DNA of 31,855 nucleotides, from IMG/VR virus record IMGVR_UViG_3300010430_000324, positions 1 through 31,855 of that record, one strand, 5' to 3'. A program made the position numbers and the translations under genes. The notes under the pieces are model-generated. The model ran no database searches, had not been told where the DNA came from, and was given only the letters and a program-made list of their open reading frames with translations. This DNA is from a virus. Shown here one piece after another: positions 8,067 through 24,657 of this stretch; the first letter of the stretch is position 1, and the number at the start of each line of letters is the position of its first letter.

Positions 8067-8330
8067 GTGGCTTCTCAGCTTGTCGCGTTTGAAAAACAGT
8101 TGGTTGCGGTTGGTATTTCTGATATTTGGGCGGCGGAAATCGAAATGTGTAGGGGTCTTGCTGCGCTCCTTGATGAAAATCCGGACCCTTTTATCTGGCG
8201 CGAGTATCGTCAGGCTTTGAAAGCTTTCAGAGAGGTTTTGAACGAGCATGACACTGACCCCTCCCAAGACTTGGATGCAGAGTGGGATGCCCTTGGTGGA
8301 TCCTCTGTTCGAGACACCGAGGAGTCCTGA
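8067..8330 (+). CDS. Probable terminase small subunit (87 aa)
   Basis: The small terminase recognises phage DNA for packaging. I place the start at GTG 8067, 8 bases after GGAGG (8054-8058), not at the upstream ATG 8013, whose extra residues are an unlikely Phe-rich stretch. The product is helical, with LAALLDENPDPFIWREYRQALKAFREVL resembling the C-terminal part of actinophage small terminases, and an acidic tail. The assignment rests mainly on position directly before, and overlapping, the large subunit. No clear helix-turn-helix is visible. Confidence 0.6.
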   Translation: MASQLVAFEKQLVAVGISDIWAAEIEMCRGLAALLDENPDPFIWREYRQALKAFREVLNEHDTDPSQDLDAEWDALGGSSVRDTEES

Positions 8331-11241: not shown

Positions 11242-11953
11242 ACGCCAGTCGCGCTCTTACGATTTTACAATTGCCCGTGCCGATTCCGGCGATGATGGTT
11301 TAACCCTTGAAGGGTATGCCGCGGTGTTCGACACACCGACAACTATTAACGATTTTCTTGGTGAGTACACCGAAACGATCGCTCGAGGGGCGTTCTCTAG
11401 AACAATTAATGCTCGCATGCCGGTCTTACAGTTTGATCATGGTACCCATCCGCTTATCGGGTCGATCCCTCTGGGGGCGATCCGTAAGCTAGCTGAGGAT
11501 GATCTTGGTTTGTTTGTTCGTGCTCGCTTGTCTGATAACTGGCTGATTCAGCCGGTACGGGACGCGATCATGGACGGGGCTGTTGATGGCATGTCGTTCC
11601 AGTTTTCTGTTACGCAGGATGATTGGAATGAGGATCGTGACGCTCGGGTTATCCGTGAGGTTAAGCTTTATGAGCTTGGCCCAGTTGTTTATCCGGCGTA
11701 TGAGACTACAACGGTCGGCGTTCGTTCCGAGATTGCGGGTGTTTTGTCGTGCGAAGATCTTCGTACTGACCTGGCCCGTGCCATAACTTTTGCTTCACTC
11801 GAACCCGCCTCTCGCACTTCGGATGAAGACACCGACAACCCGGCAGACCCGCCACTTGTCGTGCCAGATAGGCAAGCCGCGAAAGCAGCACTGAAAATCG
11901 CTGCTGTTGCTGCTATGCCTTCCGATTACTTAAAGGAGAATCATAATGAGTGA
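11234..11953 (+). CDS. Prohead protease (HK97 gp4-like, S78 family)
   Basis: Matures the capsid by cleaving the scaffold or delta domain of the capsid protein. Family features: GYAAVFDTPT near the N terminus, catalytic His69 in QFDHGTHPLIGS, and Ser121 in DGAVDGMSFQFS, followed by ELGPVVYPAYETT. I use ATG 11234, which overlaps the portal stop, giving 239 residues. A longer in-frame reading from 11162 encodes a Pro-rich leader out of character with the family. The C-terminal 60 residues are acidic and Ala-rich, probably removed on maturation. Confidence 0.92.
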   Translation: MNERQSRSYDFTIARADSGDDGLTLEGYAAVFDTPTTINDFLGEYTETIARGAFSRTINARMPVLQFDHGTHPLIGSIPLGAIRKLAEDDLGLFVRARLSDNWLIQPVRDAIMDGAVDGMSFQFSVTQDDWNEDRDARVIREVKLYELGPVVYPAYETTTVGVRSEIAGVLSCEDLRTDLARAITFASLEPASRTSDEDTDNPADPPLVVPDRQAAKAALKIAAVAAMPSDYLKENHNE

Positions 11954-13367
11954 GAAGTATCTCGCCAGGCTCTCTGAGATTCGCGATGAAGCGTCTGAAC
12001 TACGTGATGAACTTACTGTTCTCATGGAGCTAGACGAGCTCGATGAAGCTCAGGAAGCCCGATTTAACGAACTTACTGGAGAGGATTCACCTATCCAGGA
12101 GCTTCGTGTAGAAAGAGACGACGTAGAAAAGCGTCTTGCTATCCTCAAGGCTGCTAGCAATGTTGCTAACACCGAGGTTGGTGAGGGTCCGTCGGCTCCC
12201 CAGTTTATGAAGAAAACCGAAACAGACGTCGATCTTCGTACCGCTAACCGCGGTGAGGTTCGTGACGCTGCCCTTGCTATCCTTTCGGATGAGCATCGTT
12301 CGCAGGATGTTCCAATTCTTGATGAGTCCGCCAAGAAGGTGGAGAAGCTTATCAGGTCTCGGACCCGTCACACCGATGGCGATGTTATCGCCCGTCGATT
12401 GATTCTTACCGAATCTGATGCTTACCGTTCAGCTTTCGGGAAGGCCATGACCCAGGCCCAGCCTGCATGGACCCCCGAAGAGGCTGCAGCTATTAGCCAG
12501 TTCCGTGCTGCGGAACAGTCGTTGACTAACGAGTCTGGTGGTTTCGGTGTTCCGGTTCTCATTGATCCGACGATCATTTTGACTTCGGGCGCTGAGACTG
12601 CACCCCTTTTGGGTGTGTCTCGTATTGAGAACATCACGACCAACGTTTGGAAGGGTGTCAGCTCTGCCGGTGTTGCGTTCGCGAATGAAGCTGAAAACGA
12701 TCCGATTGCTGCCCAACAGGCCACGCTCGCACAGCCGACTGTGACCCCTGAGAAGGCCGCCGCGTTCATCCCTTACTCGTTTGAGATTTCGGGGGATTAC
12801 CCGAATTTCGCGGGTGAAATGAGCGCGCTGATCGAACAGGCGTATGTGGATTTCCTTGCTGCCGAAACTGCCACTGGTGCGGCTGGTGTTGTAGGTATCT
12901 TCACGGCTATTGATGCCACGGCTGGTTCTGAAGTTGCTGTCACTACTGACGGTAGTCTCGGACCAGAGGATGCTCTTATCCCTTATAAGGATTTGAATGA
13001 GCGTGACCGTGCGCGGTCAACCTGGTTCATGGATGTATCCGTTGAATCCCAGCTTCGTGTTGGTGCCGACGGTTACGGAACCCGTGACCTGTCAAGCGAT
13101 GGTATCGGTCCACTGTTGGGCAAGAGGGTTCTGCTCTCTGACTATGCCCCAGCGTTCTCCGGAACGACTGGTGCCTCTAACCTTGCTATCCTCGGTAACT
13201 TCCAGAAGTACGTTATCGCCCAACGTGTGGGCATGAACGTGGAACTGGTACCTCACGTCTTCGACGGTGATGGTCTACCGAAGGGCCAGCGTGGTTGGCT
13301 CGCATGGGCCCGTGTTGGCGCTGATAGCGTCGATGACGGTGCTTTCCGTTTGCTCCAAAACCAGTAG
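11946..13367 (+). CDS. Major capsid protein (HK97 fold) with N-terminal delta domain
   Basis: Builds the icosahedral head. The 473 residues begin with a charged coiled coil (about 1-75) that matches an HK97-type delta/scaffold domain, then a linker, and from about residue 195 the HK97-fold core (TNESGGFGVPVLIDPTII, SRIENITTNVWKG, ... AEMSALIEQAYVDF-like helix, ... NLAILGNFQKYVIAQRVGM). It directly follows the protease and has a strong AAAGGAG at 11931-11937. A hairpin terminator follows the stop, consistent with high expression. Confidence 0.92.
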   Translation: MSEKYLARLSEIRDEASELRDELTVLMELDELDEAQEARFNELTGEDSPIQELRVERDDVEKRLAILKAASNVANTEVGEGPSAPQFMKKTETDVDLRTANRGEVRDAALAILSDEHRSQDVPILDESAKKVEKLIRSRTRHTDGDVIARRLILTESDAYRSAFGKAMTQAQPAWTPEEAAAISQFRAAEQSLTNESGGFGVPVLIDPTIILTSGAETAPLLGVSRIENITTNVWKGVSSAGVAFANEAENDPIAAQQATLAQPTVTPEKAAAFIPYSFEISGDYPNFAGEMSALIEQAYVDFLAAETATGAAGVVGIFTAIDATAGSEVAVTTDGSLGPEDALIPYKDLNERDRARSTWFMDVSVESQLRVGADGYGTRDLSSDGIGPLLGKRVLLSDYAPAFSGTTGASNLAILGNFQKYVIAQRVGMNVELVPHVFDGDGLPKGQRGWLAWARVGADSVDDGAFRLLQNQ

Positions 13368-13390: not shown

Positions 13391-13413
13391 GGGGGTGCCG
13401 AACGGTCACCCCC
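13391..13413 (+). terminator. GC-rich hairpin after the capsid gene
   Basis: GGGGGTG (13391-13397) pairs with CACCCCC (13407-13413) around a 9-base loop, 24 bases after the capsid stop. The following bases (TTCTCGCT) hold only a poor T-run, so it is likely a partial terminator or an mRNA 3' stabiliser. Confidence 0.6.
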
Positions 13414-13454
13414 TTCTCGCTAACCGTTCAACTACCGTTAATAAAGGAGCAACG

Positions 13455-13676
13455 ATGAGAATCGTTTATGCCATTTCCACATCAACCGTTGGTCTCGGTG
13501 GCCAACTCGCAAGGATAGTCGTGGGGGAACCCTGGGATGCTGATGATCCCGTAGTGAAAGCCCACCCTGACTTGTTTGAAAAGAAGCCACGTATGGCGCG
13601 CACTTCGAAAATGGCGACCCCTTGGGTTGAGACTGCAACTGCAGTACCCGGAGCTTCGCGTAACGCCAGGCGTTGA
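13455..13676 (+). CDS. Small head-region protein (73 aa)
   Basis: Start at ATG 13455, with AAAGGAG 6 bases upstream; an in-frame ATG at 13395 would lie inside the hairpin. The N terminus is beta-like (MRIVYAISTSTVGLGGQLARIVVGEPWDADDPVV), then AHPDLF and a basic tail. Short proteins with a WDADDPVVKAHPDLF-type segment often follow the capsid gene in actinophages. The role is unknown; a minor capsid-associated protein is likely. Its stop overlaps the TTG start of the glycosyltransferase gene. Confidence 0.6.
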   Translation: MRIVYAISTSTVGLGGQLARIVVGEPWDADDPVVKAHPDLFEKKPRMARTSKMATPWVETATAVPGASRNARR

Positions 13677-15034
13677 GCGTTTTCGTAGGATACCTACACC
13701 CAAACCATATTTCCGCATCGTTCCACAAGTCGGTCAACGATCTACGGTTTTATGATCTAGCGACTAACCAGAATATTTCTGGTTGGGGTCCGGTGAGATC
13801 TTCGGGGTATGGGATACCGGAAGCTCGTAACACGATCGCTGATCATGTTATGCGTGAACCACGGTTTGAGTGGCTGGTATTCATTGACGGAGATATGGGT
13901 TTTGAACCGGATGTGGTAGACCGGCTTCTCGAGGTGGCAGATCCTGAGGAGCGGCCGATTGTCGGTGGGCTTTGTTTTGCATATCAGGACCAAGGGTTTG
14001 ACCAGTACAATGGGGTACGGGGGCAGCCTCGTCCCACTATTTATGATTGGGACGGCAATGATTATCACGGGCGGATGCACTATCCGGTTAACCAGCTAGT
14101 AAGGACTGCTGCGACTGGGACTGCCATGCTGATAATCCATCGCACCGTGTTAGAGCGGGTGCACGAGAAGTACGGGTGGGCCTGGTTTGATAGGATCCCC
14201 CGGAAGAAAACTTCGGTTGGTGGCGGACCGTTCGGTGAGGACATATCGTTCTTTATTCGTGTGAACGCACTGTCAATTCCCACGTACGTACATACGGGTA
14301 TTCGCACGTCGCATCACAAAGAGATTTTCGTGCAGGAGGAAGACTTTTGGCTCTCGTTTCTAGCGCCCCCAGCGACAACCCCCGTCGATGTTATTGTGCC
14401 TACTGTAAAGGCAAGGACTGCGAATGTGGTTGCGCTAAATACCTCGTTGAAAGCATCAACAGGACTTGCTCGGCTTGTTCTTGTACTGGACGACGAGGAG
14501 CATCGCGAGGAATTGGAACGATTAGGGGTCGACACAGGGGATTCGATAATCCAGCCGGGGTTATTCCCAGTGAAGGTGAATGCGGGGTTTAAAGCGACTA
14601 CCGCCCCCTGGGTTCAAATGGTTGGCGATGATTGTATTTTCCATCCGGGTTGGCTTGACCATCAACAACACGTAGCGGGTTTGTACGGGGCGAAAGTGGT
14701 CGGGTCTAACGATCTAGCAAACTCGCGAGTTATGCGCGGGGAGCATGCAACTCATTGGATGATAGACCGGGACTATATTCTTGAAGAGGGGGCATCCTGG
14801 GATGGTCCAGGGATCCTATGCCATGAAGGGTATCACCACTGGTACACTGATGATGAGATTGTTGCGGTCGCTAAACAACGTGACGTGTTTCAATCCGCTT
14901 TAGGCGCGGTCATTGAACACTTGCATCCTATCACTGGGCTTGTGGAATCCGATGAGGTGTATGAGCAGAATGATTCGTTCGCTGATCAGGATTTGCGGAC
15001 GTTCAAACGGCGGGTGAGGGCTAACCATGTCTGA
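13673..15034 (+). CDS. Two-domain GT-A-type glycosyltransferase
   Basis: Transfers a sugar from a nucleotide sugar. Two GT2-like halves are fused. Residues 1-230 have IPEARNTIADHV, the metal-binding IDGDMGF (71-77), ATGTAMLIIHR, and GEDISFF (188-194) followed by THTGIRTSHHKE-like His residues. Residues 238-453 start afresh with VDVIVPTVKAR, then LVLDDE and MVGDDCIFHPGW (316-327). The start is TTG 13673 overlapping the upstream stop (TTGA). It opens a sugar-related group between capsid and connector genes. The acceptor (virion protein, DNA base or host glycan) cannot be told from sequence. Confidence 0.78.
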   Translation: MSVFVGYLHPNHISASFHKSVNDLRFYDLATNQNISGWGPVRSSGYGIPEARNTIADHVMREPRFEWLVFIDGDMGFEPDVVDRLLEVADPEERPIVGGLCFAYQDQGFDQYNGVRGQPRPTIYDWDGNDYHGRMHYPVNQLVRTAATGTAMLIIHRTVLERVHEKYGWAWFDRIPRKKTSVGGGPFGEDISFFIRVNALSIPTYVHTGIRTSHHKEIFVQEEDFWLSFLAPPATTPVDVIVPTVKARTANVVALNTSLKASTGLARLVLVLDDEEHREELERLGVDTGDSIIQPGLFPVKVNAGFKATTAPWVQMVGDDCIFHPGWLDHQQHVAGLYGAKVVGSNDLANSRVMRGEHATHWMIDRDYILEEGASWDGPGILCHEGYHHWYTDDEIVAVAKQRDVFQSALGAVIEHLHPITGLVESDEVYEQNDSFADQDLRTFKRRVRANHV

Positions 15035-15629
15035 ATTTTCTGACTGGTTTGAATCGCGTGGACCGTCGATGACGTATTGGAAAGGCGTCCAGGTTGTTAA
15101 ACACCCTTCGGACCTGTTCGCGATAGCGAAGATTATTTGGGATACGAAACCGGATATTGTTGTTGAAACGGGAACCTGGCATGGCGGGTCGGCCCTGTTT
15201 TATGCGGATCTGGGGGTTGAGGTTCATTCTATCGATGTTGCCCCTTCGAAAACCCCACCGGAACACCCGAATATCACGTATCATCGTGGTTATTCGACAG
15301 CTGCAACAATCCACTATTTTGTTAGTGAGGCGTGTCGGGGTAAACGCACGATGGTGCTGCTTGATTCTGACCATCACAAGAAAACAGTTTTGGACGAGCT
15401 CGGGCTTTATGCAGGGCTTGTCACCCCGGGTTGTTATCTAGTAGTGGAAGACACTCTGCTGGGTGTTGAAGTGTGGAATGAACCGGATAACAGTTTTGTT
15501 GACAATGGCCCTGCGGCCGCTCTGAGTGATTGGCTGCCGGATCATCCCGAATTTGTACTCGATTTTAATGCTGAACCTGTTGGAATCAGCCAAAACCCGG
15601 GGGGCTTCTTATTGCGCTCCCACGGATGA
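15027..15629 (+). CDS. CmcI / rhamnosyl-O-methyltransferase-like SAM methyltransferase
   Basis: A 200-residue protein with the cephalosporin hydroxylase/CmcI pattern: VVETGTWHGGSALFYADL (SAM-binding loop, about 46-63), VHSIDVAP, LLDSDHHKKTVLDELGLYAGLV and PGCYLVVEDT. Despite the family name, relatives are SAM-dependent methyltransferases, including enzymes that O-methylate rhamnose on glycolipids. Between glycosyltransferases and an epimerase, sugar O-methylation is the obvious reading. It overlaps both neighbours by a few bases, so is translated as part of the same unit. Confidence 0.8.
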   Translation: MSEFSDWFESRGPSMTYWKGVQVVKHPSDLFAIAKIIWDTKPDIVVETGTWHGGSALFYADLGVEVHSIDVAPSKTPPEHPNITYHRGYSTAATIHYFVSEACRGKRTMVLLDSDHHKKTVLDELGLYAGLVTPGCYLVVEDTLLGVEVWNEPDNSFVDNGPAAALSDWLPDHPEFVLDFNAEPVGISQNPGGFLLRSHG

Positions 15630-15703
15630 TTCTTGTGTTTGCTTATACTTGTTCACCGATCGGCCAGAAACGTCTTAAAACGAGCCTGGGGCACCTTAAA
15701 TGA
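15626..15703 (+). CDS. Possible 25-residue peptide or glycosyltransferase remnant
   Basis: ATG 15626 overlaps the methyltransferase stop (ATGA) and its TGA overlaps the next ATG (ATGA at 15700). The peptide (MILVFAYTCSPIGQKRL...) resembles the first strand and turn of a GT-A glycosyltransferase and then stops. It may be a coupling peptide or the degraded start of a lost glycosyltransferase gene. Confidence 0.35.
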   Translation: MILVFAYTCSPIGQKRLKTSLGHLK

Positions 15704-16272
15704 GGCTCTCGTTCCTTATAGCTACCGTTCCGGACCGGAAATCGTTGCTATCACGCATGTTGCACTCCGTGCTAGCTAATCCAGGGGTGAACGATCTTTA
15801 TGAGGTGCTAGTTTTCGGTGGTACCAAAACCCCCCACGGAGACAAGATCAACTATATGGTCGAGAAAGCCCAAGGGTCGCACATTGTCATACACGATGAC
15901 GACGACTGGATCACCACTGATTATGTGGCACAGGTTGAACCGTTCAACCAAGATTTTGTGGGGCACCGGATTGTGGCAATGGTCAACGGAAGATACGATC
16001 AGACAGTCTCCCATTCTGCTAGGGATGAAGGCTGGAACGGGCATCAACGGGGTGTGTCGCAGAAGTGTCCCATTCGACGTGAGATAGCGTTGAAGGTTCC
16101 ATACCCGTCCGACTATTACCAGGACGGAACATGGTCCGCTGAAATCCAAACCCATGTCGAGTCAGACGTGTTCGTTGACCGTGACTTGTACTTTTACGAT
16201 TTCCAAGTCCGTGACCGTTACCGGTCAGTGGGAATGTGGCCCTATGAAAAGCAGGCGGTCCGATGGCTTTAA
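15700..16272 (+). CDS. GT-A-type glycosyltransferase (190 aa)
   Basis: A short GT2-like protein: N-terminal strand RLSFLIATVPDR, helix SLLSRMLHSVL, VLVFGGTKTPHGDKINYMVEKAQG and the metal-binding HDDDDW (65-70), then a C-terminal half with CPIRREIALKVPYP and a VESDVFVDRDLYFYDF segment. It is smaller than most family members (250 or more), so may be minimal or may act with a partner. ATG overlaps the upstream micro-ORF stop; its end overlaps the epimerase start by 10 bases. Confidence 0.7.
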   Translation: MRLSFLIATVPDRKSLLSRMLHSVLANPGVNDLYEVLVFGGTKTPHGDKINYMVEKAQGSHIVIHDDDDWITTDYVAQVEPFNQDFVGHRIVAMVNGRYDQTVSHSARDEGWNGHQRGVSQKCPIRREIALKVPYPSDYYQDGTWSAEIQTHVESDVFVDRDLYFYDFQVRDRYRSVGMWPYEKQAVRWL

Positions 16273-17267
16273 CACACCTGATAACTGGCGGAGCAGGGTT
16301 CATCGGTTCACACCTGGCTGAAAAGTTGATACTACGAGGACACGAAGTCATCAATATCGACAACCTGACAGGCGGGTGGGCCGAGAATGTTCATGGCCCT
16401 CTAATAGAAGAGGATCTAGTCACAGCCAACCTAGACGACTTGTTCGAAACGTTCCGTCCTGATTATGTGTGGCACCTCGCAGCATATGCTGCGGAGGGGT
16501 TGTCTCACTGGGTCCGCGAGTTCAACTACCAGAACAACGTGATCGGATCTGTCCGGCTCATCAATGCTGCAGTAAAACACGGGGTGAAACGATTCGTGTT
16601 CACGTCATCGATGGCCGTCTACGGTTCGCAAGAACCCCCGTTCACCGAGCAAATGTTGCCGAGGCCGGAAGACCCCTACGGGATCGCTAAGTATTCCGTG
16701 GAACAAGACCTTCGGGTGGCAGGCGAACTATTCGACCTGCCGTACATGGTTTTCCGGCCTCACAACGTTTACGGCCCGAACCAGAACATCGGCGACCCGT
16801 ATCGGAACGTTGTCGGCATTTTCATGCGGCAAGCCTCGTTGGGGTTGCCGTTGACCGTGTTCGGTGACGGTTCCCAGACTCGAGCGTTCTCGTATATCGA
16901 CGACATTGTCCGCCCGATGGTCCATTCCGTCGGCCTGGATGCGGATGGGGAAACGTTCAATATTGGTGGTGAACAGGTTGTCACGATCCTCGAATTAGCG
17001 GAAAGGGTGTCTGCCTTGTTTCCCGGGTCGGTAGTCGAACACTTGCCGGAACGGTACGAAGCGAAACACGCGTTCTGTGACCACACGAAAGCCCGTGACA
17101 TGCTCGGGTTTGAACCCCAAACAGGGTTAACATTTGGACTCGAGTGGATGGCTGATTGGGTAAAAGAAACCCCGATCCGATGGTCACAAACTCCGCACAT
17201 TGAAGTCCAAAAAGGATTACCCGACTTTTGGAGGGATAATGCGAAAACCCATTTATCTGCCGTCTGA
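16263..17267 (+). CDS. NAD-dependent sugar-nucleotide epimerase/dehydratase
   Basis: An extended short-chain dehydrogenase of 334 residues, in the UDP-glucose 4-epimerase/dTDP-glucose dehydratase group. Visible are GGAGFIG (9-15, NAD binding), Asp33 after strand 2 (INIDN), LAAYA, catalytic TSSMAVYG (114-121) and YGIAK (139-143), PHNVYGPNQ and FSYIDDIV. It makes a nucleotide sugar, probably the donor for the adjacent glycosyltransferases. The coding strand is C-richer than its G/T-rich late neighbours, suggesting separate acquisition. Confidence 0.88.
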   Translation: MALTHLITGGAGFIGSHLAEKLILRGHEVINIDNLTGGWAENVHGPLIEEDLVTANLDDLFETFRPDYVWHLAAYAAEGLSHWVREFNYQNNVIGSVRLINAAVKHGVKRFVFTSSMAVYGSQEPPFTEQMLPRPEDPYGIAKYSVEQDLRVAGELFDLPYMVFRPHNVYGPNQNIGDPYRNVVGIFMRQASLGLPLTVFGDGSQTRAFSYIDDIVRPMVHSVGLDADGETFNIGGEQVVTILELAERVSALFPGSVVEHLPERYEAKHAFCDHTKARDMLGFEPQTGLTFGLEWMADWVKETPIRWSQTPHIEVQKGLPDFWRDNAKTHLSAV

Positions 17268-17532
17268 CTACAAGAACCGAACCCGAACGGTCATAAAAGG
17301 ACGAGCAAGGTCGGGTGAGATTTCCCCTAAGGGGATCGTGGCCGAAACGGAAGATTGGGAAGGTCGCATCAAGGCTGATGTTGGGCCTGCTGCCGTCCGG
17401 TACGTCTTCGAAGACGGTAAGTTTCGTCGGATGACCCTTAAAGAACAAGTGGCTAAGGGTTACTTCTATTTAGGGCGCGGGCCCACAGGTATAAGAACAA
17501 CAGTAAAGGAAGGCATTAATGTCAAACGTTGA
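17239..17532 (+). CDS. Hypothetical basic protein (97 aa)
   Basis: Start ATG 17239, just after GGAGGG (17230-17235), within the end of the epimerase gene; a TTG at 17200 would add 13 residues but has no ribosome site. The product is basic with beta-like sections (RTRTVIKGRARSGEISPKGIVAETEDW, AAVRYVFEDGKFRRM) and GYFYLGRGPTG near the end. No family recognised. Position between sugar genes and virion proteins gives no clear role. Confidence 0.6.
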   Translation: MRKPIYLPSDYKNRTRTVIKGRARSGEISPKGIVAETEDWEGRIKADVGPAAVRYVFEDGKFRRMTLKEQVAKGYFYLGRGPTGIRTTVKEGINVKR

Positions 17533-17728
17533 CAGGCTACGGGCTGAACTGGCCCTGGCGGAAGCGGAAGAAGCGTTCCGTCAAAAGAAAGCGGACGGCG
17601 CGCTGACAAACGAGGATCGTTTGGAACTGCGTCGAATCCGACAGGAATACCGGGACGTTCATCGTAGCCCTGTGGCTGATGGTGCTGCTCCTGGTTCAAT
17701 AGGAACTAGCGCGGAGGCGTCTATCTAA
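17519..17728 (+). CDS. Small charged helical protein (69 aa)
   Basis: The first 48 residues form a highly charged helix with heptad-like leucines (VDRLRAELALAEAEEAFRQK, then DRLELRRIRQEYRDV), followed by a flexible Ala/Gly/Ser tail. This is a probable coiled coil. AAAGGAAGG precedes ATG by about 6 bases. It ends in TAATG with the next gene. It could oligomerise or anchor the following virion protein, which is only a guess. Confidence 0.6.
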   Translation: MSNVDRLRAELALAEAEEAFRQKKADGALTNEDRLELRRIRQEYRDVHRSPVADGAAPGSIGTSAEASI

Positions 17729-18180
17729 TGGCTATAACTGCCTCGGGCCTGTATGGGCTCACTCTCGAGAAAATGTTCATCGACACTTTGGGCGAAAGTC
17801 TGGAAGCTGAGGACAACAAACTTGGTTTGGTGTACGACGCTCACACCCCGGACTTCGACTTGGACGACTTTCATGCGGACCTCGACAACGAGGTCACCGG
17901 CGGCAACTACGCCAAAGAGGCTGTCTTGTCGACTGAAATCACTTTGGCAACTGGCACGTTGACGTTCGATGCTGCGGACACCGTGTTTGATAATGCTGGC
18001 GCTGACGACGTGACTATCACTGACGCGATGGCTGCAATCCTGTGGACCGAAGTCGGTTCGTCTGCGACTGACCAGCTGGTTGGTTGTTGGGACTTTAGTA
18101 CTGCGGCCAGCTGCACGAACAGTACATTTACCGTCCAGTGGAACGGGTCAGGGCTTTTTACGCTCGATTTCACTCCTTGA
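17728..18180 (+). CDS. Probable virion structural protein (150 aa)
   Basis: An acidic, beta-rich protein with repeated Thr/Asp stretches (LSTEITLATGTLTFDAADTVF, DDVTITDAMAAILW) and a C-terminal sequence FTVQWNGSGLFTLDFTP, the style of phage structural proteins. Start overlaps the previous TAA. It is the first of a run of beta-rich genes that I read as capsid or virion-surface components. No specific family is recognised, and the two Cys residues are close together near residue 119-128. Confidence 0.65.
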   Translation: MAITASGLYGLTLEKMFIDTLGESLEAEDNKLGLVYDAHTPDFDLDDFHADLDNEVTGGNYAKEAVLSTEITLATGTLTFDAADTVFDNAGADDVTITDAMAAILWTEVGSSATDQLVGCWDFSTAASCTNSTFTVQWNGSGLFTLDFTP

Positions 18181-18213
18181 CCTGGGGTTTTACCTTTTTG
18201 AAAGGAGCCTTGG

Positions 18214-18576
18214 TTGGCTACTCAATTCGTTGTTCTTGAATCAAGACAGAAAAACAACGGGTCGACTGTTGTTGTCCATACGGAAACCCCGGCAGGGTCT
18301 AACGCTGCTGGGGTCGTGTGGGCGACGGCGTTGTCGGAGTCGTTCGGTGGGGTGTTTGTGTCTGCTGTGCCGGTGTCTGTGATGCCGGGTGGCCGTCAGG
18401 CTGAGTTGGATGCTGGCACCCGTTTTGAGTGGTCTGTCAACGTTCAGTATGACGCGAATGATACGAACGTGAACAAGTTGGCGGCTGTTGAGTCTGCTAT
18501 CACTGCGGACGAACCTGTTCAGCTTGTCTATTTCCAGAACCGGCTCAGGTTTTGGGGTCAAACGGGGAGCGTCTAA
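18214..18576 (+). CDS. Probable virion structural protein (120 aa), TTG start
   Basis: Start TTG 18214 with AAAGGAG 6 bases upstream (18201-18207); no ATG is available nearby. The product is beta-rich (ATQFVVLESRQKNNGSTVVVHTET..., FEWSVNVQYDAND, PVQLVYFQNRLRFWGQTGSV) without Cys or membrane segments. It looks like a small structural domain. The gap before it (18181-18213) holds only the ribosome site. Confidence 0.6.
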   Translation: MATQFVVLESRQKNNGSTVVVHTETPAGSNAAGVVWATALSESFGGVFVSAVPVSVMPGGRQAELDAGTRFEWSVNVQYDANDTNVNKLAAVESAITADEPVQLVYFQNRLRFWGQTGSV

Positions 18577-18936
18577 ATGGCTTTGACTTGGGCGGCTGAA
18601 CAATCCATCACTCAGTTAACTACGGTCAATCAGACTGAGCAGACTTCGACGGCGTTGGATTTGACCGCGTCGTATTGGACGAAGGTGCAAGTGACAGTCA
18701 ACTCGTCGGGGACGACGGACAACTGCATCATCCGTGTGTATAGGTCGTTGGACGATTCGGTGTATGACGATATTGCGTCCGCCGAATTCGAGGTTGTGAT
18801 TCCCGACACGAACGACACGCCGTACACGTTCGACCTTGGCCCTGGCGAAAGGTATGTGAAGTTGGGGGCTGAGTCTGCGGGCGCGACGGACACTTACACG
18901 GTTGATGCTGACTATCAGCGTTTGACGAGCGTGTGA
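18577..18936 (+). CDS. Probable virion structural protein (119 aa), single beta-sandwich
   Basis: ATG follows the previous TAA directly (TAAATG). The sequence alternates Thr/Val-rich strands and ends in a pattern (FEVVIPD, PYTFDLGPGERYVKLGAESAGATDTYTV) often seen in jelly-roll or Ig-like domains of phage fibres and of tail tube extensions. No catalytic residues. It is likely a surface or fibre domain encoded as a separate gene. Confidence 0.6.
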   Translation: MALTWAAEQSITQLTTVNQTEQTSTALDLTASYWTKVQVTVNSSGTTDNCIIRVYRSLDDSVYDDIASAEFEVVIPDTNDTPYTFDLGPGERYVKLGAESAGATDTYTVDADYQRLTSV

Positions 18937-18937
18937 T

Positions 18938-20209
18938 GTGCAGCGGACCAAACCTTCTGTTTGGGTTCCGAACCTTGGTTCGATAGATCCCAACTACGGT
19001 CGCCTGTGGTCGGATTGTGTTTCGTTGGTCCCGTTTTGGACTCCCGGCGAAACCGACAACCTTTCCGCTTTCGATTTCGGTCAACGGAAACTGTTGACTT
19101 CGGATAGCGGTGTGGACGGGTTTCCTGTTGCGACCCCTTATGGGTCTGGTTACGAGTTCGACGACCCTAATGACGGTGACGGGTTGAACGTGATGTCTCA
19201 TGCTGAGTATGGGCGTTGGTTTGCTGGTTCCTCGAACGCAACGTTTTGGATGGTTGGTGCCTACCGGACTGATTATTCGGGTTTGCGTGGTTGGGGGAAG
19301 GGCGACGGGACCACCGTTCAGGATGTCGGTTTGGGGACTACGAACGGGAACGCAGCTAGGTTTGAGTGTCGGATCGGGTCGTCTGATATTGACATTTCGT
19401 CGGCGATTTCGGCTTCGACCTACTACCAGTGGTTCGGGGTTGTCCGTGACGGTGTCGCTGAACTGTGGGTTGTTGACGGGTCCGATTTGAGTCTTGTTGC
19501 TTCTAACTCGTCGGAGGCTGGGTCGACTATTGGTTCGACGGCTTCGTCGCAGGATTTGGCTTTGGGGAATGTTGGCGCTGGGGAGTCTGACAACGCCCGC
19601 GCTTGGAACGGTCCTCTTGTGGTTGCGGGTGCTTGGACTAGGGCACTGTCGGAACCGGATATGCGGTTGTTGCAGCATGACCCGTTCGGGATGGTCCGTC
19701 CGGCTTTGTGGCCGGTGGTGCCGTTCTCGGTTGTGTTGACGGTGTCGTTGTATGCGACTGGTGATGGGACTGTTGCCAGTGTTGTTGACGAGGTTGATGG
19801 GACGACAACGATTTACACGTCGGTTGATGACGACCCTGATTCGCCGTCTGATTCTGACTATATGAATAACACGGCTGAAACGGCGTCCATTTTCCACGAG
19901 TTGACGGATATGCCTGTCGGGTTTGGTACGGCTTCGACGGGGACGATGTTGGTAAGGACTCGGGGCCAGAACTGGTCTGACCACACGATGCTTCTTTATG
20001 CGGAGTTGTTTCAGTCGGACGAGTCGACGTCGTTGTCTGATGAGGTTCATGTTGGGACGGCTGACGCTGACGGTTCGTTCGCTAACGAAACTGAAGTGAC
20101 GTTTACCGGGTTGGTGGCTGGGTCTAAGAGTGTTTGGGATGGGGCCAGGGTGCGGTTCCGTTGGGTTGCGTCTGGTTTTGATTCTGGTTTCGATGGAGGG
20201 TTTTCGTAA
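18938..20209 (+). CDS. LamG/concanavalin-like lectin domain protein (423 aa)
   Basis: GTG start just after the previous stop. Residues about 25-250 follow the lectin-like pattern of phage structural proteins (GSGYEFDDPNDGDGLNV, RWFAGSSNATFWMVGAYRT, then VAELWVVDG, and PLVVAGAWTRALSEPDMRLLQHDPFGMVRP). That last sequence closes such domains in many phage proteins. The remainder is a second beta-rich domain that ends with a Gly/Ser/Phe-rich tail. Lectin-type domains bind glycans, so it could bind host sugars, or sugars added by the phage's own glycosyltransferases. A large antisense open frame here is a composition artefact. Confidence 0.75.
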   Translation: MQRTKPSVWVPNLGSIDPNYGRLWSDCVSLVPFWTPGETDNLSAFDFGQRKLLTSDSGVDGFPVATPYGSGYEFDDPNDGDGLNVMSHAEYGRWFAGSSNATFWMVGAYRTDYSGLRGWGKGDGTTVQDVGLGTTNGNAARFECRIGSSDIDISSAISASTYYQWFGVVRDGVAELWVVDGSDLSLVASNSSEAGSTIGSTASSQDLALGNVGAGESDNARAWNGPLVVAGAWTRALSEPDMRLLQHDPFGMVRPALWPVVPFSVVLTVSLYATGDGTVASVVDEVDGTTTIYTSVDDDPDSPSDSDYMNNTAETASIFHELTDMPVGFGTASTGTMLVRTRGQNWSDHTMLLYAELFQSDESTSLSDEVHVGTADADGSFANETEVTFTGLVAGSKSVWDGARVRFRWVASGFDSGFDGGFS

Positions 20210-20952
20210 TGGTTGACACGGTTCGGACCCTTTCTGCGTTGCAGACTCTTTTGGCGGATAACACTTCTGGTGATGTTTCGCAGCAGGATTTACGGGACTT
20301 TTTGGAGTCGTCCTATCCGCATTTGGGCACACATGAAGGGTCGACAGATGACATCGTGTGGGACGGCGACCTTGCTGGGATGACCACCCAAACGGTGTCG
20401 GGTACTGCGACTTGGACTGAGGCTCGCGGGCGGGTGTCGGTGGTTGTGAACGGTCAGACAGCTGACGATTCGGCGTCTGTCCTTTCAGCTTTCACGTTCG
20501 GAACCGGCGACGAGTGGGTTGTTCCTGTTTACGGGGCGATGAGTATGGCGGCTACTTCGGGGAACCTATCTGCCGGGATCGTTTTTTCTGATGGGACAGC
20601 CACATCATCGAATGCTGTGTTTGGTCATATTCAACTGGCGCAGACGGCGTCGGTCACGGTTACGGAACTTGGTGTGGGTCGTCATGGGACTTTGACGGAC
20701 CATTCGACCGCCCCGTGGGTGTCTGACGGGTATCTGGCTCCTGCCGCTGGTAACCCTGTGTTTATCAAATTGAAGTATTCGGCGTCTAACACGTTTCAAT
20801 TGTCGTTCTCTCCTGACGGGATCACCTATTCGGCGTTCGGTGAGTCTGACATTTCCAAAACGATGACCCCCACCCATGTCGGGGTGGCGGCTTGGCAGAC
20901 GGAAGCCGAGGACGGGATTGTCACGTTCGGGCCGTTGATGAAAGTGGCGTAA
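20209..20952 (+). CDS. Fibre-like virion protein (247 aa)
   Basis: Begins with VRTLSALQTLLADNTSGDVSQQDLRDFLES, a helical N-terminal signature found on phage fibre or head-fibre proteins, followed by a 200-residue beta-rich domain with lectin-like features (FIKLKYSASNTFQLSFSPDG, THVGVAAWQTEAEDGIVTFGPLMKV) as at the end of a jelly roll. ATG overlaps the previous TAA. Probable receptor or surface glycan binding; target unknown. Confidence 0.65.
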   Translation: MVDTVRTLSALQTLLADNTSGDVSQQDLRDFLESSYPHLGTHEGSTDDIVWDGDLAGMTTQTVSGTATWTEARGRVSVVVNGQTADDSASVLSAFTFGTGDEWVVPVYGAMSMAATSGNLSAGIVFSDGTATSSNAVFGHIQLAQTASVTVTELGVGRHGTLTDHSTAPWVSDGYLAPAAGNPVFIKLKYSASNTFQLSFSPDGITYSAFGESDISKTMTPTHVGVAAWQTEAEDGIVTFGPLMKVA

Positions 20953-21239
20953 TGGCTACCTGCACAGGTCGAGGCGACGGCAAGGGCGGGCATTGTTGTT
21001 GGATAGCCGGGGAAGTCTGCGAGTTTCTTTTCACTGATCGGGGTGGGACTCCCCGGTGTGGAGTGTGGGACGAAATGTCCTCTCCCGAATGGGAGGTCGC
21101 GCCGGTTGGTTTGATGTTCGCTGAGAAGTGGCCTGGGAAGACATGCAAAGACTGGCCGCAGAAGATTCCTGCACTGATGGAACGTGAACCGGAGATGGGT
21201 CCGTTCGCGTTGTGTTGTTGGGGTAGGGGGAACGCCTAA
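20952..21239 (+). CDS. Cys-rich small protein (95 aa) inside the structural block
   Basis: Start ATG 20952 overlaps the upstream TAA; a longer in-frame reading from 20892 would overlap by 60 bases. It has eight cysteines, two as CC pairs (HCCWIAGEVC and LCCWG) plus C4, C36 and C66, with aromatic residues around them. Such a composition is unlike the beta-rich neighbours and suggests a disulfide- or metal-stabilised domain. No family recognised. It ends in TAATG with the repeat protein gene. Confidence 0.6.
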   Translation: MATCTGRGDGKGGHCCWIAGEVCEFLFTDRGGTPRCGVWDEMSSPEWEVAPVGLMFAEKWPGKTCKDWPQKIPALMEREPEMGPFALCCWGRGNA

Positions 21240-23734
21240 TGGCTACATGGGTACGGAACAATTCGGCTTCCCCATCTGCCACTGACGACGTACCCCTCCC
21301 GTTTGACACGACGGTAACCCTCGACAATGGGACTGCTCCAGGAGACTTTGACCCTGCGGCAGTCAATTCGGTTCGTATCCAATACGACCTTGTTGTCACA
21401 GGGTTGGACGCGTCTGATACTTGGACGGATTATCAGGAAGCCAATCTAGGGACCACACCGCTTGCCACGGTGGATGGCGGCAACCAGACCCGCTCCACCA
21501 ACTCGACCTTCTCTAAGGACATTACCGACAATTCGCCCGATAACGGTCAAACGGCGGGGACCTGGGAGGCCGCCGATTTAGAGGTTGGCACTAACGGCGC
21601 TTGGGCTACCTGGAACAAGACCAAAGGGCCGGACAATACGACCGCTCAGGTCACGAACGTTACGGTCACGATTGATTATACGCCTGGTGTGGGTGGGACT
21701 CCTGGGTCTGTTGAACCTGCCGCGATTGCTAGGTCGTTCACTGTTGATGCGGTTACGACTGTGGGTGCGGCGGTTGCTACCCCGGCGTTGACGGACCGTT
21801 CGTTCACTGTTGACGCTGCTTCACCTTCTGTTCCGACCACTGTTGAACCGGCGTTGACGGATCGTTCGTTCACTGTTGACGCGGTGACGGTTGCTGGGAA
21901 AGCCAAAACGGAACCGGCTGTCACGGCACGTTCTTTCACTGTTGATGCGGTCACGTTGGTTGGGTCTGCGGTTGTTGTCCCCGACGAGATCGCCAGGTCG
22001 TTTACTGTTGATGCTGTCACGGTTTCGGTGCCTGGTGTTTCTGAGTTTCAGGTTTCTGGTTTCCGTGTCGACCTCACCTATGAGGAATCGAGCGACGGGT
22101 CGGCGACTGTCACTCCGGGTGTTATCGCCAGGTCGTTCACCGTTGACGCGCCGACTCCTGTCGGTGGAGCGGTCACTACACCGGCTGCCACTGCCAGGTC
22201 GTTCACAGTTGACGCTGTTGCGACGGTTGGGGCTGCTGTTACTGAACCGGCTGCAACGGTCAGGTCGTTTACGGTTGATGCTGTCACGTTGGTCGGTGGG
22301 GCTGCTGTAACACCGGCTGTCACGTCTAGGTCTTTCACGGTTGACGCTTCGACTCCGGTTGGTGCAGCGGTTACGACCCCTGCGGCCACGGAACGTTCGT
22401 TCACTGTTGACGCTGCTACTACATCTGGTGGTGGGGTATCCAACCCTGCGGTTACGTCGAGGGTGTTCACGGTTGACGCTCCTACTTTGGTTGGTGGGGC
22501 TGTTGTTGTACCGGCTGTGACGTCGAGGGTGTTCACTGTTGATGACGTTTCTACGCAGGCTGGCGGGTCGAATATCCCTGTTGCTGCTACGGAACGTTCG
22601 TTCACTGTTGATGCTGTCACTGTCCACGGGGCCGCTGTTGTGGTGCCAACTGTAACGGCTAGGTCGTTCACTGTTGATTCGGTGGCGTTGGTTGGTGGCG
22701 CTGTTGCTACACCTGGCGTGACGGCAAGAGTGTTCACGGTCGAAACGGTGACATTGTCGGCTGGGACTGTTCTCACCGCCCCGGCCATCACTAGGTCGTT
22801 CACTGTTGACGCTGTCTCGGTGCATGGGTCCGCGGTTGTGGTCCCTGATGTGACATCAAGACTGTTCGACGTTCTTGCAGCGTCGACTTCTAACACGGAC
22901 GCGGGCGCTGTGTCTGTCACCCCTGGGGTGATAGCGAGACTGTTCACTGTTGACGCTGTCACAACTGTCGGTCCTAGCGTTCCGACACCTGGTGTCATAG
23001 CCCGGTCGTTCACTGTGGACGCTTCTACTCCTGTCGGTGGGGCTCTGGTCACACCCGCGGCGACGGCAAGGGTGTTCACTGTTGATGCGGTGACGGTGGC
23101 GAGTAGCGCATCCGCAACGCCTGCGGTTACGGCACGTTCGTTCACTGTTGACGCTGTGACCCTGGTTGGTGGTGCGGTTGTTGTGCCTGGTGTCACGGAC
23201 AGGGTGTTCGTGTTGCCGGCGGCTGACGTCAAGGTTGGCGGGTCGACCGCTTCGCCTGCTGTCACAGCCAGGTCGTTCACTGTTGACGCACCGTCTGTGT
23301 CTGGTGGTGCTGTTGCCACACCGGGCGAACTGGCCGCCATAGTGGACGTTCTGCAAGGTGTCGTGTCGGCTGGTGGGGTTATCACCCCAGGAACTGTTAC
23401 GGCTTCGCTGCTGATCCCTCAAGCCGCTGTCGTCAACGTCGGGTTGGCTGAACCTGCCGCCACTCCGGTTGTGTTGGTGTTGCCGAACCCGTCCGTTTCT
23501 GGTGGTGGGGTTATCACCCCTGGCGTGTTGGTCGCTGTTCTAACCGTTCCGACACCGGACAAATACAACACCGATGTTCGACCGGCTTATCAGGAAGGCG
23601 GCCTGTCTGTCGCCTATCAGGACGGCGGGTTGACGGTTGTTGTGCAAGGTGGAGGGGTGGCCGTGTCCGTTCAGGAAGATTCTTTAGAGACAACCGTTCA
23701 CGACGGGAAACTCACAGTAGGAAGTCAAGAATGA
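21239..23734 (+). CDS. Large repeat protein (831 aa) with 22-residue repeats
   Basis: Residues 1-150 form a beta-rich domain (TTVTLDNGT, SVRIQYDLVV, VTNVTVTIDYTPG). From about 158 to 690 there are 21 clear copies of a unit close to ARSFTVDA-x-T-x-VGGAV-xx-PA-x-T, usually 22 residues, plus two degenerate copies, then four more decayed units to about 775. Copies 5 and 6 are separated by an extra insertion (SEFQVSGFRVDL...). The C terminus changes to another short repeat (YQEGGLSV, YQDGGLTV, VQGGGVAV). The sequence suggests a rod-like beta-structured fibre. It is translated from TAATG and overlaps the connector gene by four bases. Confidence 0.75.
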   Translation: MATWVRNNSASPSATDDVPLPFDTTVTLDNGTAPGDFDPAAVNSVRIQYDLVVTGLDASDTWTDYQEANLGTTPLATVDGGNQTRSTNSTFSKDITDNSPDNGQTAGTWEAADLEVGTNGAWATWNKTKGPDNTTAQVTNVTVTIDYTPGVGGTPGSVEPAAIARSFTVDAVTTVGAAVATPALTDRSFTVDAASPSVPTTVEPALTDRSFTVDAVTVAGKAKTEPAVTARSFTVDAVTLVGSAVVVPDEIARSFTVDAVTVSVPGVSEFQVSGFRVDLTYEESSDGSATVTPGVIARSFTVDAPTPVGGAVTTPAATARSFTVDAVATVGAAVTEPAATVRSFTVDAVTLVGGAAVTPAVTSRSFTVDASTPVGAAVTTPAATERSFTVDAATTSGGGVSNPAVTSRVFTVDAPTLVGGAVVVPAVTSRVFTVDDVSTQAGGSNIPVAATERSFTVDAVTVHGAAVVVPTVTARSFTVDSVALVGGAVATPGVTARVFTVETVTLSAGTVLTAPAITRSFTVDAVSVHGSAVVVPDVTSRLFDVLAASTSNTDAGAVSVTPGVIARLFTVDAVTTVGPSVPTPGVIARSFTVDASTPVGGALVTPAATARVFTVDAVTVASSASATPAVTARSFTVDAVTLVGGAVVVPGVTDRVFVLPAADVKVGGSTASPAVTARSFTVDAPSVSGGAVATPGELAAIVDVLQGVVSAGGVITPGTVTASLLIPQAAVVNVGLAEPAATPVVLVLPNPSVSGGGVITPGVLVAVLTVPTPDKYNTDVRPAYQEGGLSVAYQDGGLTVVVQGGGVAVSVQEDSLETTVHDGKLTVGSQE
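21710..23560 (+). repeat. Array of about 66-bp coding repeats
   Basis: DNA-level repeats inside the 831-residue gene. A core close to AGGTCGTTCACTGTTGACGC recurs with a 66-bp period (for example at 22130 and 22196). Variation is mostly at third codon positions and in the linker. Long antisense open frames here merely mirror the repeat and are not genes. Confidence 0.85.
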
Positions 23735-24657
23735 TTCAAATACTCGCTAACGCTGGGGATGTAACCCTCACTAAATACTGGTATCAGGACGGCACCCATG
23801 TCGACGTTGGCGACGTGACGATCGGGATTGTCGACGGTAACGGTACTGAGGTTGTTGCTTCTGGTACTGCCACCACGAACAACACGACGTCTTACACGTA
23901 CAGTCTGGCCGATTTGGGTAACCCGCAACAGTTGACGGTCACTTGGACGGACGTTGACACGACCGACACCAGGGTTGACCGGGTCGAAGTGTTGGGTGGT
24001 TGGTTGTTTACTGAAGCGCAGGCTCGGGCGTTCGCTTCAAAAGCGGATGCCACGTCCGCTCTTAAACCATTGGATTCCCCTACAGAATATCCTGACTCGG
24101 TGATAGCTGAGGAGCGTGCTCGCATAACAGACGATCTTGAAAGGTGGACTGGTAAAGGTTGGGTCCCCCGGTATTGTCGGATCGAAATGAAAGGTAATGG
24201 TGGATCGGTCCTCCAGTTAGGAGACGGGATAGCTCGCACCTCTGACGGGTACGCGTTGAATAGGCCGGGCCGGTATAACGATATAGCGGTGGTTCTTTCG
24301 GTGACGATCGGGGGTACAGCCCAAACAGTCGGTAACTATGAGATCAATCCGGTAAGTGGCCAGTTGATCAATAAGAATTCTGTGTTTACGGTAGGGACAC
24401 TGTCAGACCCATATAATGTTGTTGTCGAGTACGTTTATGGAGTGCCGTACACGATCGACGGGGTTGACCGGATCGCCATGAAACTTTTAATAGACCGGCT
24501 TGTTCCTTCAGCGTTCCCCGATAGAGCTTTATCGGTTGACACGGATTATGGGACAACCAGGTTTGTTCAACCCGGTGGACCGATGAAAAACGTGTCTCGT
24601 GTTCCCGAAGTCAACGAATGGATTCGAGCTCATAACAACAAGATTCTGGTAGGCTAA
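23731..24657 (+). CDS. Head-tail connector/adaptor with N-terminal Ig-like domain
   Basis: Residues 1-90 form a beta-sandwich (VTLTKYWYQDGTHVDVGDVTIGIVDGNGTEVV...). The rest resembles gp6-like connector proteins: FTEAQARAF, EYPDSVIAEERARITDDLERWTGKGWVPRYCR, a beta-hairpin part (ALNRPGRYNDIAVVLSVTIGG), and the helical VDRIAMKLLIDRLVPSAFPDR. It joins portal to tail. It would normally follow the capsid gene directly; here 10 kb intervene. ATG overlaps the upstream stop (ATGA). Confidence 0.75.
   Translation: MIQILANAGDVTLTKYWYQDGTHVDVGDVTIGIVDGNGTEVVASGTATTNNTTSYTYSLADLGNPQQLTVTWTDVDTTDTRVDRVEVLGGWLFTEAQARAFASKADATSALKPLDSPTEYPDSVIAEERARITDDLERWTGKGWVPRYCRIEMKGNGGSVLQLGDGIARTSDGYALNRPGRYNDIAVVLSVTIGGTAQTVGNYEINPVSGQLINKNSVFTVGTLSDPYNVVVEYVYGVPYTIDGVDRIAMKLLIDRLVPSAFPDRALSVDTDYGTTRFVQPGGPMKNVSRVPEVNEWIRAHNNKILVG

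Follow-up and report, generated by a model that had tools for sequence, protein, structure and literature searches.

The window analysed here is the whole of a linear IMG/VR virus record, IMGVR_UViG_3300010430_000324, comprising 31,855 bases from an uncultured actinophage-like virus. A ThyA-family gene (1886-2701) adjoins a dUTPase-like gene and a dATP/dGTP diphosphohydrolase-type gene (900-1671), and the head genes begin at 8248 and follow the usual siphophage order of terminase, portal, protease and capsid. Between the end of the capsid gene at 13367 and the start of a connector gene at 23731 lie two gene modules, the features of which are given below together with the bounding genes; L006 and L023 are related contigs.

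11946-13367, plus strand: major capsid protein, HK97-type (PF05065 Phage_capsid, 4.5e-20)
13395-13676, plus strand: small head-region protein, 93 aa (weak match to phrog_9538, connector, 1.1e-4; conserved xxATAxPG C-terminal motif)
13673-15034, plus strand: GT1, a tandem GT-A glycosyltransferase of 453 aa (PF00535 Glycos_transf_2, two matched stretches)
15027-15629, plus strand: CmcI/rhamnosyl-type SAM O-methyltransferase (PF04989 RMNT_CmcI, 9.5e-38)
15700-16272, plus strand: GT2, a second GT-A glycosyltransferase (phrog_14775, 8e-14; Pfam match weak)
16263-17267, plus strand: NAD-dependent nucleotide-sugar epimerase/dehydratase (PF01370, 4.8e-53)
17239-17532, plus strand: small conserved protein that starts the second, beta/repeat module (common to L006, 50%, and L023)
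17728-18180, plus strand: phrog_644 protein, a marker of the second module (phrog_644, 2.2e-15; 74% identical in L006)
18214-18576, 18577-18936, 18938-20209 and 20209-20952, plus strand: four second-module proteins
20949-21239, plus strand: small Cys-rich ORF, overlapping its neighbours by 4 nt and 1 nt
21239-23734, plus strand: repeat protein of 831 aa (at least 21 RxFTVDA-like units, mostly with a 22-residue period)
23731-24657, plus strand: connector-like protein that closes the interval (phrog_30828; 67% identical in L006)

The interval genes abut or overlap by 4-17 nt, with only two gaps, of 70 nt between the CmcI-type gene and GT2 and of 33 nt in front of 18214, and the block therefore belongs to a single head operon; a promoter and terminator scan of the sequence gave signals no more frequent than in shuffled sequence. 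The small head-region protein likely starts at the ATG at 13455. A second contig, L002, matches the window at 99.8% identity over 12.7 kb; since the match starts ahead of the terminase and runs into the ORF at 18938, the junctions in that stretch are not an assembly error. The initial annotation held that a connector usually follows the capsid directly, and this is the case in the cultured relatives identified by portal, Shagrat, RavenCo17 and REQ1, which leave only 0.1-0.5 kb between the capsid and the adaptor or next head-tail gene, so that the gap in the window is unusual for phages with related portals. A DNA search of the island against 50,697 phage records returned no match. The minus strand carries long ORFs at 18728-20332 and 22078-23385, antisense to the 18938 ORF and to the repeat gene; they were set aside as a probable by-product of composition.

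Enzymes of the sugar module and their cultured precedents

Pfam and PHROG matches bear out the four sugar-related genes that had been annotated in this gap, namely a fused double glycosyltransferase, a CmcI-like methyltransferase, a second glycosyltransferase and an epimerase. The AF2 model of GT1 (pLDDT 94.9) consists of two GT-A-like halves, both domains retain intact acidic motifs, and D72, D74, E189, D190, D320, H384 and E395 are invariant or nearly so among 46 sequences. The best solved Foldseek matches were COLGALT1 and K4 chondroitin polymerase and the best viral match was gp91 of Gordonia phage Sixama, each of which, like GT1, has two GT-A-like halves per chain; because identity to GT1 is 10-14% and global TM about 0.3, their domain arrangement and substrates may differ from those of GT1, and a collagen substrate suggested by the COLGALT1 match was not accepted. 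A tblastn search of cultured phages gave only a remote unannotated match for GT1 and none for the CmcI-type methyltransferase, and a GT1 profile run against 84,980 prokaryote genomes yielded no confirmed relative.

The methyltransferase is a member of PF04989, scoring 130 bits against a curated cut-off of 23.2, and it matches the CmcI structure 2br3 at 2.5e-6. It reached 1.4e-21 and 77 bits against the rhamnosyl O-methyltransferase family NF045824 of NCBIfam, below the equivalog cut-off of 400, and is therefore described only at the level of the PF04989 family; the CmcI family includes enzymes that act on non-sugar substrates. The best PDB match of the epimerase was UDP-glucose 4-epimerase (4zrm, 2.5e-55), and the galE NCBIfam equivalog cut-off was not reached. 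GT2 is homologous to the glycosyltransferase domain of Che8 gp108 (2.7e-14; 1e-14 with a profile of GT2 relatives) and to LittleE gp15 (1.8e-11; 9e-18 with the profile in a small database), and the profile also matches Sixama gp91 and Yvonnetastic gp25.

Two sets of cultured phages provide precedents. In the Cluster J (Omegavirus) mycobacteriophages Omega, LittleE, Thibault and BAKA, an insertion between the capsid and head-tail connector genes was published in 2013 (PMC3706429); it occupies the same slot as in the window and contains several glycosyltransferases, including a two-domain enzyme (Omega gp16), and SAM methyltransferases, and the window likewise combines glycosyltransferase and SAM methyltransferase genes in this slot. 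LittleE has the order GT-kinase-MTase/GT-GT-GT between capsid and connector, and its gp17 is weakly homologous to GT1, whereas GT1 belongs to a separate and more conserved family than the Cluster J glycosyltransferases. The window differs in having the CmcI-type methyltransferase, the epimerase and the second module, and its island proteins gave no Pfam match to the probably accessory protein-kinase-like gene of the LittleE gp16 type.

For Che8, capsid glycans are credited to Freeman et al. 2023 by the citing papers PMC11256854 and PMC12619734, gp108-110 are the virion glycosylation genes and the glycans are reported at C-termini, so that GT2 is homologous to an enzyme of a phage for which these papers report virion glycans. 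The Che8 genes lie at the far right genome end whereas the window sugar genes lie beside the capsid, and GT1 and gp110 give only a marginal profile match. A glycan site identical to that of Che8 is unlikely, because the window capsid ends in ...LLQNQ and its tail protein in ...ARHLI, against ...TGS and ...DGS for their Che8 counterparts. O-methylation, which had been singled out as notable for a phage capsid, is less exceptional than it seemed, since Che8 gp108 (a glycosyltransferase domain plus a Methyltransf_24/TylF methyltransferase domain) and LittleE gp17 already fuse the two activities. A few cultured mycobacteriophages already show the capsid-connector glycan arrangement itself; what is new is the capsid-coupled GT1 family and its exchangeable capping enzymes.

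The beta/repeat module and its independence in relatives

The giant repeat protein of the initial annotation was confirmed at 831 aa; its gene directly overlaps the connector gene, and L006 and L023 encode a related repeat protein upstream of their connector. The second-half proteins appear beta-rich by eye. A LamG-like lectin at 18938-20209 found no support, as LamG/concanavalin matches were absent from Pfam, NCBIfam and PDB sequence searches and the protein was also missed by a profile built from the LamG proteins of relatives' capsid-connector slots. The proteins at 18577 and 20209 have weak or unnamed matches only. The phrog_644 protein has 13 matches, spread over 13 loci and located in capsid-adaptor slots; its AF2 model (pLDDT 55) was discarded. 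Searches of cultured phages for the connector, the phrog_644 protein and the repeat protein found none.

A comparison with relatives that lack the island separated its two halves. L006 has the 67%-identical connector, the 74%-identical phrog_644 protein, a homologue of 17239-17532 and a related repeat protein, and no glycosyltransferase, methyltransferase or epimerase, while the portal relatives have the short gaps noted above. Conversely, L010-L016 and other loci have GT1 and sugar-modifying genes followed directly, where the contig extends, by the adaptor and no second module. Both modules occur together in the window, in L023, the closest full relative, which keeps the order GT1-GT2-CmcI-GT2-epimerase, and in several other loci; the more distant L003 and L004 carry a different fused methyltransferase-glycosyltransferase and a CmcI homologue in the slot. 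Because each module occurs without the other, the island consists of two separable modules, exchangeable units that are paired in the window by chance or by selection. The description of the island as a self-contained system is therefore not supported, and the sugar genes would in any case depend on nucleotide sugars from the host and on an acceptor.

Association of GT1 with the capsid gene in uncultured phages

A GT1 profile scan of IMG/VR found 205 stretches encoding GT1 relatives, of which the best 80 were kept, with loci cut at 10 kb on either side; sampling thus starts from GT1 similarity. In all 74 loci that have both genes, GT1 lies on the same strand as the capsid gene and 23-2070 bp (median 387) downstream of it, and of the 11 other GT1 loci most start at the edge of their contig or encode a capsid missed by the profile. 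Homologues of the small head-region protein lie immediately upstream of GT1 in 56 of the 74 loci. For loci whose capsids share less than 95% identity, the distance correlation with GT1 was r=0.85 for the capsid (bootstrap 0.75-0.90), 0.59 for the portal and 0.31 for the terminase; the partial correlation was 0.76 for the capsid given portal and terminase, and -0.05 for the portal given capsid and terminase. In the 21 loci that contain an adaptor, the GT1-adaptor correlation was 0.84, about as high as that of capsid and GT1, and physical linkage therefore explains part of the capsid-GT1 correlation. GT1 is the conserved element of the interval, and the capsid is its constant partner.

The other enzymes vary. 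In the 66 loci with enough downstream sequence to be scored, a SAM methyltransferase was present in the interval in 44, of the CmcI/Methyltransf_24 type in 25 and of another type in 21, and a TOD1/MUCI70-type glycosyltransferase in 19, an epimerase in 14 and a 2OG-Fe(II) oxygenase in nine; L074 encodes an enzyme of the sugar C-methyltransferase type. Of the modification genes in 38 bounded loci, 57 lie inside the interval, which makes up less than one-third of the DNA, and 5 outside, an enrichment favoured by the fact that the seeds were themselves drawn from such intervals. The oxygenase, of a prolyl-hydroxylase-like family, lies in the GT1-adaptor interval in L021 (2694-3308) and eight other loci, often with a methyltransferase after it.

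The slot also holds diverse surface-type proteins. True LamG domains occur in L038 and L060, and a CEMIP-type beta-helix in L023. In L006 (7364-8470) and L023 (10710-12293), proteins combine a hydrophobic N-terminal stretch, a mucin-like linker rich in Thr and a domain resembling a beta-helix. L025 (8518-9549) encodes collagen triple-helix repeats with a T4 Gp10-type C-terminal domain between GT1 and the connector, L011 (8979-9611) a fasciclin-domain protein with a signal-peptide-like start between the capsid and the small head protein, and L087 (9435-10853) an apiosidase-like glycoside hydrolase domain with a collagen-binding-type domain. Just upstream of the major tail protein, L041 (18528-19547), L049 (15150-16229) and L087 (15693-16742) encode mutually related proteins, each about 340-360 aa long, that may represent an additional glycosyltransferase family.

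Proposed virion glycosylation and competing explanations

From these sequence comparisons we consider it probable that 13673-17267 is a virion-glycosylation module within the head operon, with the capsid as the most probable acceptor and with a CmcI-type enzyme that O-methylates the sugar. The epimerase would adjust a nucleotide sugar supplied by the host; GT1, through its two catalytic domains, and GT2 could then transfer up to three sugars to a co-produced protein, most probably the capsid; and the CmcI-type enzyme would O-methylate one of these sugars, rather than the protein, and so cap the glycan. Location inside the head operon implies late expression of the sugar genes, and the capsid is favoured as acceptor for its constant pairing with GT1, although co-evolution of the two can also result from linkage alone. 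The second module (17239-23734) would contribute separate, exchangeable structural or display proteins, perhaps head decorations or fibres, which may or may not bear the glycan; head fibres built from it are possible. Of the particle-modifying system first envisaged, the glycan-making and O-methylating part is thus well supported by GT1-capsid conservation, the homology of GT2 to gp108 and the late head-operon setting, and its self-containment is what was lost.

Less likely, if the foremost competitor, is an acceptor other than the capsid, such as a second-module product of the repeat or beta-rich kind, the small protein at 13395-13676 or tail proteins. In its favour, the slot holds Thr/Ser/Ala-rich repeat proteins and Thr-rich mucin-like linkers in L006 and L023 and a collagen-like protein in L025, but loci such as L010-L016, L045 and L055 retain GT1 while lacking the second module altogether, L006 retains the second module without GT1, and the small protein is present in phages without GT1 (L006 and L008).

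DNA glycosylation and host-surface modification fit worse than virion glycosylation. That the module alters a host glycolipid, teichoic acid or capsule, blocking superinfection or aiding release, we regard as improbable: rhamnosyl O-methyltransferases of the PF04989 family do modify mycobacterial glycolipids, and phages are known to encode serotype-converting systems, but the module has no membrane glycosyltransferase or flippase, a simple hydropathy scan having found no strongly hydrophobic segment in GT1, the CmcI-type enzyme, GT2 or the epimerase. The head-operon position and conserved capsid linkage further imply late expression, and bacterial genomes yielded no confirmed relative of GT1, which disfavours prophage conversion. 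More improbable still is glycosylation of DNA as in T-even phages, with the ThyA-family product making a hydroxymethylated nucleotide to which GT1 and GT2 add sugars; this protein is indeed closer to T4 dCMP hydroxymethylase (5.6e-18) than to any thymidylate synthase, the window genome may carry a modified base, and glycosyltransferase-based DNA hypermodification is published (Pyle et al. 2024, as cited in PMC12619734), but GT1 lies in the late head operon and tracks the capsid, none of 23 other GT1 contigs, many of them partial, gave a ThyA-family gene in a search that recovers the window's own, and the oxygenase of L021 matches 2OG-FeII_Oxy_3 and not Tet_JBP (the search of the genomes for Tet_JBP lacked a positive control).

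Within the preferred reading, virion glycosylation of the HK97-type capsid, we also entertain an improbable extension, in which a large group of uncultured tailed phages would decorate this capsid through a dedicated, capsid-coupled GT1. In the branch formed by nine of the 66 loci, the oxygenase of the interval would hydroxylate a side chain, GT1 would then glycosylate it and exchangeable O- or C-methyl caps would diversify the coat. If true, this oxygenase branch would use a collagen-like chemistry of hydroxylation followed by glycosylation. Virion glycosylation in phages has been established recently, and in a few cultured mycobacteriophages. A glycosyltransferase tied to the capsid gene in dozens of diverse environmental contigs, and accompanied by exchangeable enzymes for methylation, epimerisation and hydroxylation, would make glycosylation of phage particles common in nature, and the capsid-GT1 gene order would provide a marker for finding it, while a methyl-capped glycan would bear on the recognition, attachment and stability of the particle.
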